Shown: positions 55,081 to 58,340 of the stretch, in pieces | Layout of the letters: each line of letters starts with the position of its first letter | Numbering within the stretch: the first letter of the stretch is position 1 | Origin: Halpernia frigidisoli | GTDB taxonomy: Bacteria > Bacteroidota > Bacteroidia > Flavobacteriales > Weeksellaceae | NCBI RefSeq assembly: GCF_900113805.1 | Contig: NZ_FOQT01000004.1 | Span: 186,001 to 250,000 of the forward strand | Length of the DNA stretch: 64,000 bases | Direction: 5' to 3' | Position numbers and translations under genes: made by a program | The notes under the pieces: model-generated | Told to the model about the DNA's origin: nothing | Database searches by the model: none | The model's input: only the letters and a program-made list of their open reading frames with translations

Positions 55081-56229
55081 TTAAAGATCTATTTTAAATT
55101 TAAAATCTTTTAATGTCATCAATTTTGCTCTTCTTTTAAGCCAATCTGAAACGCTTTCATTTTTATTTAGTAAATTATTTTTAATAAAACTATATAAATC
55201 TTCATCAGTTTTTACATTCGTAAGCGTTTCTTTTAAAAGTGTTAAGCCACCTTTTTCCAAGATAGCATCATCGATAATAGCACCTATTAAATAGTCAATT
55301 TGAATATCTTTTTCAAAATTATTTAAGTTAAAAAGATCAAGTGTGACGTTGGAATTTTGAATATAATAATTATTAAACTTCTGAAGTAAGGTTTTAAAAT
55401 TATAATCTTTATGGACGTTTTCGCCTCCATTATAAATACTTAATCCAGTGTTTAAAAGATAGTGAGCCTGAGGATATTTTTTGTTTATTAGATGAATTAA
55501 TTCGTGTTTATGAAATTCACCATAGAATTTTGAGGTGTAAACAATGTCATTTTTGATGTCATAAAATGCGCATTTTTCAGTATTTATATTTGGTGCAAAA
55601 TCAAATCCTGAGATTTTAAAAACCTCCGCACACTTTTCTGCAATGAAATAATTTATTGAATTTGTTTTATCTAAATCAAAGGTTTTATTTAAGTTATTTA
55701 AAAATTTTGATGCTTCTTCTGCATTTTTAGACCTAAAATTGTATGTTTTAGGAAAATAGTAATTAATCAGACCAACTTTTTTACTTTCCCAATTTTTAGT
55801 ATTTCTATTCAAATTGTCTTTAAAGTAATAATTGTCGCCAATTTTTTCTACATAAACTTTAACTATTGCAAAAGGATTTAATTCAGATTTTTCATTTATC
55901 ATGTAAAAAATGGAGGATAATTCGAAACATTCATCTTCATTTTTTAAAATACTTAAAATCTGATTTTTAAAAGGTAATTTAAATAAAGAAGGATTATAGA
56001 AGCCTTGCGTTTGTAAAAGATTACAACCGGTTTTATTTAAATCTGATGTTTTCCAATATATGCAATTTCCGTCCGAATTTTCTCTAAATGAATTTACATA
56101 ATCTTCCCAGTTTTGAGCGATCGTATTCTGTTCAGTAGTATAGGTTTTTTCGTATGGACTATTTTCAAAAGAAACTTGGGAATAAATAATGTTACTAATA
56201 AGAAAAAATATTAAAACTTTAATTTTCAT
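55081..56229 (-). CDS. Exported protein with HExxH motif but incomplete metalloprotease site
   Basis: This 382-residue protein has a signal peptide (about 1-17) and a mature part with FHKHELIHLINKKYPQAH. His242, Glu243 and His246 form a gluzincin-type HExxH. In peptidase MA-like proteins the third ligand is the Glu of a following EGLAxY motif; here the corresponding segment is NTGLSIY (residues 260-266), with Thr instead of Glu. Glu270 lies nearby and might substitute. It is thus either a degenerate protease or one with shifted ligands. The C-terminal region ends with helices. Function is unknown. It follows the broken DUF6759 gene by 23 nt. Confidence 0.72.
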   Translation of the reverse strand: MKIKVLIFFLISNIIYSQVSFENSPYEKTYTTEQNTIAQNWEDYVNSFRENSDGNCIYWKTSDLNKTGCNLLQTQGFYNPSLFKLPFKNQILSILKNEDECFELSSIFYMINEKSELNPFAIVKVYVEKIGDNYYFKDNLNRNTKNWESKKVGLINYYFPKTYNFRSKNAEEASKFLNNLNKTFDLDKTNSINYFIAEKCAEVFKISGFDFAPNINTEKCAFYDIKNDIVYTSKFYGEFHKHELIHLINKKYPQAHYLLNTGLSIYNGGENVHKDYNFKTLLQKFNNYYIQNSNVTLDLFNLNNFEKDIQIDYLIGAIIDDAILEKGGLTLLKETLTNVKTDEDLYSFIKNNLLNKNESVSDWLKRRAKLMTLKDFKFKIDL

Positions 56230-56252: not shown

Positions 56253-56893
56253 CTACTTCCTGTTCTCAAATTTATTTTCAGCAAAAGCTGAATAACCCAG
56301 ACTGATAATTTGATTTTCAGTAAAAGATTTGGCACTATTATAAGGCGCGTCACAAACGTTTGCTGAAAGGTTATAATCTCCTTTTTTAATGATGATAAAA
56401 TCTTCGCCGTGCGATGAAATGGCTAATTTTCCAGCTGAATTTCCGGTGTAATTTAAAATTAAATTGCAGTCTGATTGATTTTGGATCATTACAATTCTTT
56501 CGTCACTTTTCAGATCGGGATTGAAAAGGGCATTAAGCAAATTGACAGTTTTGGTCGTGTGTTTTGCTAAACTTTCCTGTTGTAAAGCTTTAAACTCTGC
56601 TTCATCCAAAAAGATCTTTGTTACTTCTACGATTGGTCTTGCTGTCATAAAATCTGCTGGATTTTTGCGCGTCATCCAACTTCTATTTTTTAATTCTACC
56701 AATCTTTTTTTACAAAGCTGAAATCTTGGATCTTCATGATTTGCCGTATCTAAAAATTCCTGAATTTCATCCATATTATTGGTCGTAATAATATAGCTGT
56801 ATTTCTTTTTATCGGGGGATGTTTTTTTTTGGAGTAACCGGAGAATCCGATGGTAAAAATTAAAATAAAAAATAACTTATTGCTGTTTTTCAT
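56253..56893 (-). pseudogene. DUF6759 protein gene frameshifted at an A9 tract
   Basis: The real start appears to be the ATG at 56893, directly after the trmB stop (TAAATG), encoding a signal peptide (MKNSNKLFFILIFTIGFSGYS). An A9 run at 56822-56830 then puts the frame out of register and stops it at 56753. The frame continuing from there (SPDKKKYSYIITTNN, then MDEIQEFLDTANHEDPR to the end at 56253) is open for over 190 residues and matches DUF6759 as I remember it. Ten As instead of nine would restore one 213-residue exported protein. A9 tracts are prone to slippage, so the gene may be phase variable, rescued by transcriptional slippage, or miscalled. Confidence 0.75.
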
Positions 56894-57571
56894 TTAGTTT
56901 AAACGGAATTTAATATACGTTATTGTTTTTCCTTTACTTGAAAAAAGATCTTCATAATAAGTCTGGATTTCTCTTAAAAGTGGCGTGTTTGCATCAAATT
57001 CCGGTGCGCCGTAAATATCGTGGTGTGCGGTAATTATTTCATGTCCTGCACCTTGAAGTAAACCTAAAGTATAGCCATGAAGAAATTCAGAATCGGTTTT
57101 TAAATGAATTATACCGTCTTTTTTAAGGAATTTTTTATAGCGTGCTAAAAATTCCGGATGCGTCATTCTGTGTTTCGTTCGTCGGTATTTTATTTGTGGA
57201 TCCGGAAACGTGATCCAGATTTCGTCAATTTCATTTTCTGCGAAGAAATGGTCAACAAGTTCAATTTGAGTTCTGATAAAAACCACATTTTCCATTCCCG
57301 TTTCGTGTGCCTCTTTTGCACCAAACCAAAAACGTGCGCCTTTAATATCAATTCCAATAAAATTTTTTTCCGGGAAAGCTTTCGCCAAACCAACAGAATA
57401 TTCGCCTTTTCCGCAACCCAATTCCAAAACAATCGGATTGTCATTTTTAAAAACCTCAGCGTTCCATTTTCCTTTTAAAGGATAGTCTGCCAAAGCTTCC
57501 GCTCTTGTTGGTTGAAAAACATTCGGCAATATTTTATTTTCGTCGAAACGTTTCTGTTTATTTTTTCCCAT
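56894..57571 (-). CDS. trmB: tRNA (guanine-N7-)-methyltransferase
   Basis: This 225-residue SAM enzyme has the motif LELGCGKGEYSVGLA near residues 49-63, FIGIDIKGARFW, and the TrmB signature ITFPDPQIKYRRTKHRMTHPEFL. It methylates G46 in the variable loop of tRNAs. Length is normal. A minus-strand -7 box (TATTTTTG, 57588-57595) lies just upstream. Its stop codon is joined to the start of the frameshifted DUF6759 gene. Confidence 0.96.
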   Translation of the reverse strand: MGKNKQKRFDENKILPNVFQPTRAEALADYPLKGKWNAEVFKNDNPIVLELGCGKGEYSVGLAKAFPEKNFIGIDIKGARFWFGAKEAHETGMENVVFIRTQIELVDHFFAENEIDEIWITFPDPQIKYRRTKHRMTHPEFLARYKKFLKKDGIIHLKTDSEFLHGYTLGLLQGAGHEIITAHHDIYGAPEFDANTPLLREIQTYYEDLFSSKGKTITYIKFRLN

Positions 57572-57647: not shown

Positions 57648-58340
57648 TTATTTTAAGCTAATATTTTGTGAAATGAGATCAGCCAGTTTTGAATATTCAT
57701 TATTATACCGATGATTTCCAGGTAAATGTATCATCGAAAAGTGATCTAATTTTATTAATTTGTAGGGAAATCTGATCCCGATATTACTTAAAACCGCAAA
57801 AGTTTTGGGCACTTTCATCTTATTTATTTCCGGTAAAACTTCGTAATCACCTCGTGCGCCATCGAAAAGCATTCCCTGTAAGCTGACTTCGAAATCTGCA
57901 GTTTTGGAAGGATCTAATAATATGACAGATTCTATTTTATTTTGTAAATTTTGCGGTAATCTGTTGACAATAAATGATGTAACATCCGCACCAAAACTGT
58001 AACCCAGAATAACAATTTTCTGATTTTTTCTGCCTTTTAATTTTTGATTTAAATAATCAGCAATTCTTTTTGCAGTTTGTTCAGGCGTTTTTAGTTTCCA
58101 GAAATAAGCTTTAGAATTTAAAGCGGTGATGTCATAATTTCTTGCGAATATTTCATCACTTAGACTTTTTGAAAACGTATTAAAACCGGCATCACCACTG
58201 ATATAAAATATTAAAGGACTGTCATTTTTTGCGTCCAGCTCGCGCACGGGAAAATCCTGTTCAGAAGAATTTTTGCAGGCGAAAAAAAATGCAAGAGAAA
58301 ACAACAGTAAAATATTTAACTTCAAAGGTACTTTCATCAT
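57648..58340 (-). CDS. VirJ/AcvB-like periplasmic alpha/beta hydrolase lipoprotein
   Basis: This 230-residue protein has a lipobox with Cys22 (AFFFAC), an alpha/beta hydrolase core and a nucleophile elbow GYSFG with Ser115. PLIFYISGDAGFNTF at residues 42-56 and a final HLPGNHRY with the likely catalytic His match the bacterial virulence domain of VirJ/AcvB. In Agrobacterium, AcvB hydrolyses lysyl-phosphatidylglycerol made by LpiA. Here it overlaps the MprF-like gene by 4 nt (ATGA), the same pairing, so it probably cleaves the aminoacyl lipid made by its partner. A start at the second Met is also possible. Confidence 0.85.
   Translation of the reverse strand: MMKVPLKLNILLLFSLAFFFACKNSSEQDFPVRELDAKNDSPLIFYISGDAGFNTFSKSLSDEIFARNYDITALNSKAYFWKLKTPEQTAKRIADYLNQKLKGRKNQKIVILGYSFGADVTSFIVNRLPQNLQNKIESVILLDPSKTADFEVSLQGMLFDGARGDYEVLPEINKMKVPKTFAVLSNIGIRFPYKLIKLDHFSMIHLPGNHRYNNEYSKLADLISQNISLK

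Follow-up and report, generated by a model that had tools for sequence, protein, structure and literature searches.

The DUF6759 gene behind trmB in the analysed window (the whole 64,000-nucleotide stretch of Halpernia frigidisoli contig NZ_FOQT01000004.1, whose numbering is used throughout) is split between two reading frames, while it is uninterrupted in all other trmB-linked copies examined. With moderate confidence, we regard it as an exported-protein gene which is normally intact but probably underwent a one-base frame change, recent and specific to this lineage, at a poly-A tract behind its signal peptide; slippage at this tract may still provide a little full-length protein. The evidence is presented below together with the rival explanations, the most serious of which is an error in the assembled sequence.

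Layout of the split gene

The relevant features are the following, all of them on the minus strand:

56894..57571, minus strand: intact trmB, coding for a tRNA (guanine-N7-)-methyltransferase of 225 aa (ORF; PF02390, E 1.4e-31)
56750..56893, minus strand: 5' piece of the split gene, a 47-aa ORF with a signal peptide (ORF; the signal peptide is in frame in 92 of the 92 other trmB-linked copies examined)
56822..56830, minus strand: A9 tract directly past the signal peptide, the likeliest site of the frame change (sequence; an in-frame A7 in the same-genus copy)
56253..56821, minus strand: remainder of the split gene (3' piece), read in the shifted frame, with its first ATG at 56774 (173 aa) (ORF; comparison with the same-genus copy)
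56292..56564, minus strand: DUF6759 domain (PF20545), residues 71-161 of the 173-aa ORF (117.8 bits, cut-off 27)

The ATG at 56893, the first base past the TAA stop codon of trmB, opens the signal-peptide frame, exactly where the first-pass annotation had placed it from the sequence and its ORFs. This frame reads into nine A (56830-56822), which are followed by a C at 56821, and ends after 47 aa at a stop codon at 56750. The second frame, at -1 relative to the first, is open for 207 aa from stop to stop and contains the 173-aa ORF from the ATG at 56774 to 56253; a search for ATG, GTG or TTG codons upstream of 56774 in this frame found none. The 173-aa ORF matches the DUF6759 family of Pfam with an E value of 2.4e-34 (117.8 bits at a gathering cut-off of 27), and the product of the -1 frame is 54% identical to the copy in the only genome of the same genus among the search matches (G001). 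Because the -1 frame is thus real coding sequence and the syntenic same-genus copy behind trmB continues unbroken from its signal peptide, a chance overlap of two ORFs is ruled out. The proposal of a predicted exported DUF6759 gene adjoining trmB is borne out by the signal peptide, the PF20545 match and the conserved gene order.

The position of the frame change is narrowed by the comparison only to about 56802-56830, an interval which also includes a C5 and an A5 run. Because the A9 tract is the longest run in this interval, it is the likeliest site on sequence grounds. The earlier claim of a one-base split at A9 therefore stands as regards the frames, which are one base apart, and the tract, whose length is known to slip, whereas the site itself is proven only to within this interval.

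The trmB-linked gene in related genomes

A trmB-linked copy was examined in 93 distinct genomes of the family. In 92 of them the gene is one uninterrupted frame of 187-242 aa with a hydrophobic signal sequence, and only the window copy is split. The same-genus copy comprises 211 unbroken aa and contains an in-frame A7 where the window has A9. The set was reduced from 121 loci by removing six duplicates (L029, L030, L069, L070, L079, L088), one locus without a match (L026) and 21 loci lacking a correctly placed trmB motif; two of these 21 (L027 and L028), which had looked short, are both open from a GTG codon with a signal-peptide-like start. Two further loci (L105 and L139) were counted as intact, as the TAG listed inside the match terminates a 198-aa ORF and lies behind the domain. 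The copies represent part of all matches. A search with a full-length query contributed 82 of the 93; such a query is slightly biased towards intact copies, and 90 of the best 150 matches of this search were examined. The other 11, including that of the window, came from a search with the 173-aa query. Somewhere in the genome, 253 of the 296 family genomes searched contain a match to the G001 protein.

Judged by this comparison, the trmB-linked DUF6759 gene is ancestral, codes for a predicted exported protein and is normally intact. The survey also documents a recurrent neighbourhood, with such a gene following trmB in no fewer than 93 genomes of the family. The start coupling to trmB suggested by the first-pass annotation applies to the window and to a few relatives, among them the same-genus copy, whose ATG overlaps the trmB stop codon by one base. 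The distance from the trmB stop to the ATG ranges from -4 to +28 nt in 66 of the 92 copies (3 nt or less in 6) but amounts to 95 nt or more in the other 26; because of this spread, we regard the neighbourhood as recurrent and tight coupling as not general.

State of the 3' piece and paralogous genes

The downstream 173 aa were searched for a further stop codon or frame break, and none was found. The alignment shows that the 3' piece retains both conserved cysteines. A 3' piece without any further lesion indicates that the frame change is recent, tolerated or partly bypassed, or else that it is a consensus error. The duration may have been somewhat longer than "recent" implies, as mild relaxation of the window copy is possible because it misses more conserved residues and is more distant from most relatives. 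It keeps 22 of the 30 residues conserved at 95% or more, compared to 26 of 30 in the same-genus copy, although two of its eight misses merely reflect the missing N-terminus. Its mean identity to the 91 other copies, 37.9%, is close to the 39.6% of the intact same-genus copy, but 71 of these 91 relatives are nearer to the same-genus copy than to it.

Two DUF6759 paralogues of 186 and 145 aa are encoded elsewhere in the same genome, and both are intact and have signal-peptide-like starts (three TAA codons in the match of the 186-aa paralogue are consecutive stops at its own end). Because of these two intact paralogues, the loss of the trmB-linked copy may be tolerated.

Probable origin of the frame change and possible rescue by slippage

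The proposed course of events starts from the mature protein, which often begins with lysines; in an AT-rich genome, their AAA codons make the site A-rich. Because of these lysine codons, runs behind the signal peptide slip easily in replication, and we infer that replication slippage in this segment shifted the frame in this lineage. If the assembled sequence is right, normal translation would produce a signal-peptide stub of 47 aa, and no DUF6759 protein would be exported. Bacterial RNA polymerase can slip on runs of nine A, so that a small share of in-frame transcripts may arise and allow the synthesis of some full-length protein.

Such a rescue by polymerase slippage appears plausible by analogy, with published precedents. 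Six genes split at nine A which occur in a single frame elsewhere were termed "pseudo pseudogenes" (Baranov et al. 2005, PMC1088944). The window gene resembles them in being split at nine A, in having homologues which occupy one ORF elsewhere and in the prospect that slippage would give the full product: the product without slippage has 47 aa, the other frame is open to 56253, and single-ORF homologues are present in other species in 92 of the 92 other trmB-linked copies examined. It differs from them in that both slippage and the tract length in the cell are putative here. In Blochmannia vafer, eight genes are described as possibly corrected by slippage (PMC3017870), and the window gene shares with these poly(A)/poly(T) genes a single frameshift in a tract in an otherwise undecayed gene. 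The Blochmannia cases, however, include DNA replication genes (dnaX, dnaG) of obligate intracellular symbionts, whereas the gene affected here is a DUF gene from a 3.0-Mb genome which also encodes two intact paralogues. A genome-wide study of transcription indels observed no restored frame (PMC5574713), which counts against rescue by slippage.

The phenomenon as such, a frameshift at a hypermutable tract, is already known. If slippage is real at this site, one more exported protein would join the genes which seem broken at nine A yet are expressed. For annotation, an automatic pipeline would be expected to call a pseudogene or else a protein of 173 aa lacking the export signal, and neither fits the ancestry of the gene. 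A further step is conceivable, although we give it only a slim chance: the trmB-linked DUF6759 gene may have passed from a single frame to slippage-dependent expression at A9, with slippage in replication or transcription setting the fraction of cells or transcripts which export the protein. If true, the lysine-rich segment behind the signal peptide would become a contingency site.

Possible assembly error and homopolymer tracts in the genome

The main rival explanation is a homopolymer error in the assembly or consensus, with the gene being intact in the cell as it is in the relatives, and we assign it a lower but still appreciable probability. It would account for the fact that only one of the 93 trmB-linked copies examined is split, that the downstream frame is undamaged and that the lesion lies at a site of a type prone to sequencing errors; moreover, a run of 45 T bases in the same assembly may itself be an artefact. 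This longest run seen in the genome (L219:1024-1068, corresponding to G000:C7:349123-349167) lies outside the window, 73 bases upstream of an ATG (L219:1142) which opens an apparent signal-peptide gene, and is either a slippery tract in a promoter region or an assembly artefact.

Against a systematic homopolymer error speaks the distribution of runs on both strands of the 3.02-Mb genome, where A/T runs of exactly 8, 9 and 10 bases occur 1311, 239 and 46 times, falling smoothly. The window itself contains six nine-base A/T runs and one ten-base run, and A9 is not rare in this genome. We sampled 96 of the 239 A9/T9 tracts and found 19 of them in clearly intact coding frames, one flagged and 76 non-coding or undecided; the flagged tract (L067) proved on inspection to lie inside an intact ORF with a TTG start, and no clear coding break was found among the 96, which is a weak argument against systematic error. 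The window's own A9 counts among these 76 non-coding or undecided tracts because the codon model needs a longer 5' piece. Cruder tests on the initial 30 tracts pointed the same way, 6 of the 30 lying in ORFs of 250 aa or more. Compared to the 85% of the window called coding, the 19 of 96 clearly coding tracts suggest that A9 is under-represented in coding DNA, although this comparison is rough, as the 76 others may include coding tracts and codon usage was not randomised. Such a scarcity would be expected if these runs slip harmfully, and a depletion of A9/T9 from coding regions is reported for AT-rich genomes (PMC1088944).

Eight same-strand frame transitions were identified in 84 kb of the genome, and none of them has a run of at least 6 A/T or at least 5 G/C in the overlap. 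A frameshift scan of the window against G001 returned one weak split query among 29 with matches and did not flag the DUF6759 gene. The HMM frame scan which gave the eight transitions and the A9 survey likewise miss the DUF6759 split, because the 5' piece is short; all three are weak tests for errors near gene starts. The surveys therefore argue only weakly against a generally error-prone assembly, and a single error at this site is compatible with them.

Phase variation as a rival explanation

The first-pass annotation had also suggested that the gene could switch on and off. In such a phase-variable (contingency) gene, slipped-strand mispairing at A9 would reversibly switch the exported protein within the population, an explanation which we consider improbable. 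In favour of this model, an exported-protein gene here has a long A-run close to its 5' end, and comparable runs are frequent in the 92 relatives: 37 contain A8-A10 at the start codon and 10 contain A8-A9 directly past the signal peptide; the two groups share four relatives, so that 43 belong to at least one of them. In inlA of Listeria monocytogenes, a 5' poly(A) run is reported to vary at high frequency (PMC2831843), and there as here an A-run lies near the 5' end, where a frameshift truncates the protein early. For inlA, however, isolates with both states of the tract have been described and its reversion has been measured, whereas here the evidence comes from one genome and no off state occurs among the relatives examined.

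The intact state of all 92 other copies speaks against switching, as every one of the 43 relatives whose 5' region contains A8 or a longer run is in frame and the same-genus copy has its A7 in frame. An evolved switch is not supported because frequent switching should leave some of these 43 genes in the off state. They represent other species rather than strains, and the upper 95% bound of about 7% on the off fraction applies if the genomes are independent, which they are not fully. In addition, both the length and the location of the run differ between copies, and an AT-rich genome can be expected to have A-runs after MK starts and AQK cleavage sites owing to its lysine codons (MKKK and AQKK are seen). 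Among the papers listed by literature searches on homopolymer phase variation in flavobacteria, none concerned this gene or the DUF6759 family.

Less likely alternatives: programmed recoding and a functional split gene

Programmed recoding, either by -1 ribosomal frameshifting on A_AAA_AAA or by programmed transcriptional slippage, would set the level of the full-length protein. The heptamer A_AAA_AAA is present in the tract in the reading frame of the signal peptide, with the second frame in the -1 position, but the two-frame layout occurs in none of the 92 relatives and there is no clear stimulatory structure downstream (folding z-score -1.18, with 27 of 200 shuffles as good). On these two results, a programmed element was rejected, and a study in E. 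coli (PMC5009743) also counts against it, leaving this explanation very unlikely.

We consider it the least credible option that the gene functions in split form, with the 173-aa part translated by reinitiation at the ATG at 56774, which lies 25 nt inside the 47-aa ORF, and working without export, as this Met aligns with Ile in 93% of the relatives and so represents no ancestral start, and as the product would lack both the signal peptide present in 92 of 92 relatives and the mature N-terminus.

The DUF6759 family and the gene neighbourhood

A sequence search of the PDB found no solved relative of the protein (best E 0.19). An AlphaFold2 model of the 173-aa ORF, built from only three sequences, reached a mean pLDDT of 62 and a pTM of 0.44 and consists of helices followed by seven strands; Foldseek searches of the PDB with this weak model returned no match at E <= 0.001 (best 0.22; query TM <=0.22 in the best 50 rows). 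No paper naming DUF6759 was found in a literature search. Rfam detected no RNA element at gathering thresholds between 55900 and 57700, and a scan for promoters and terminators gave 16 promoter-like sites compared to 10.2 (sd 3.6) in shuffled sequences and 2 terminator-like sites compared to 1.4.

The gene behind the split gene (55081-56229, minus strand) codes for a protein of 382 aa with a signal-peptide-like start, which matches no Pfam family above the cut-off and contains the sequence HELIH. HExxH motifs of this kind are typical of zinc peptidases. A search of 37 genomes recovered the gene in 5, its own included, but not in the same-genus genome.

Signal types vary among the 92 other trmB-linked copies: a simple pattern identifies a lipoprotein-like (lipobox-like) cysteine in 24 of them, and ordinary (AQ) signals also occur. 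Because lipoprotein-like and ordinary signals alternate among copies of one gene, membrane anchoring of the product seems to be readily changed.

The position before trmB is occupied in the window by a gene for a VirJ-like hydrolase (57648-58340; PF06057). At six loci (L013, L018, L019, L029, L030 and L031, the last from Chryseobacterium ureilyticum), a longer DUF6759 relative of 257-308 aa starts about 1.0-1.2 kb before the trmB motif on the same strand, and in two genomes (G030 and G020) trmB is flanked by both the longer and the short DUF6759 genes.
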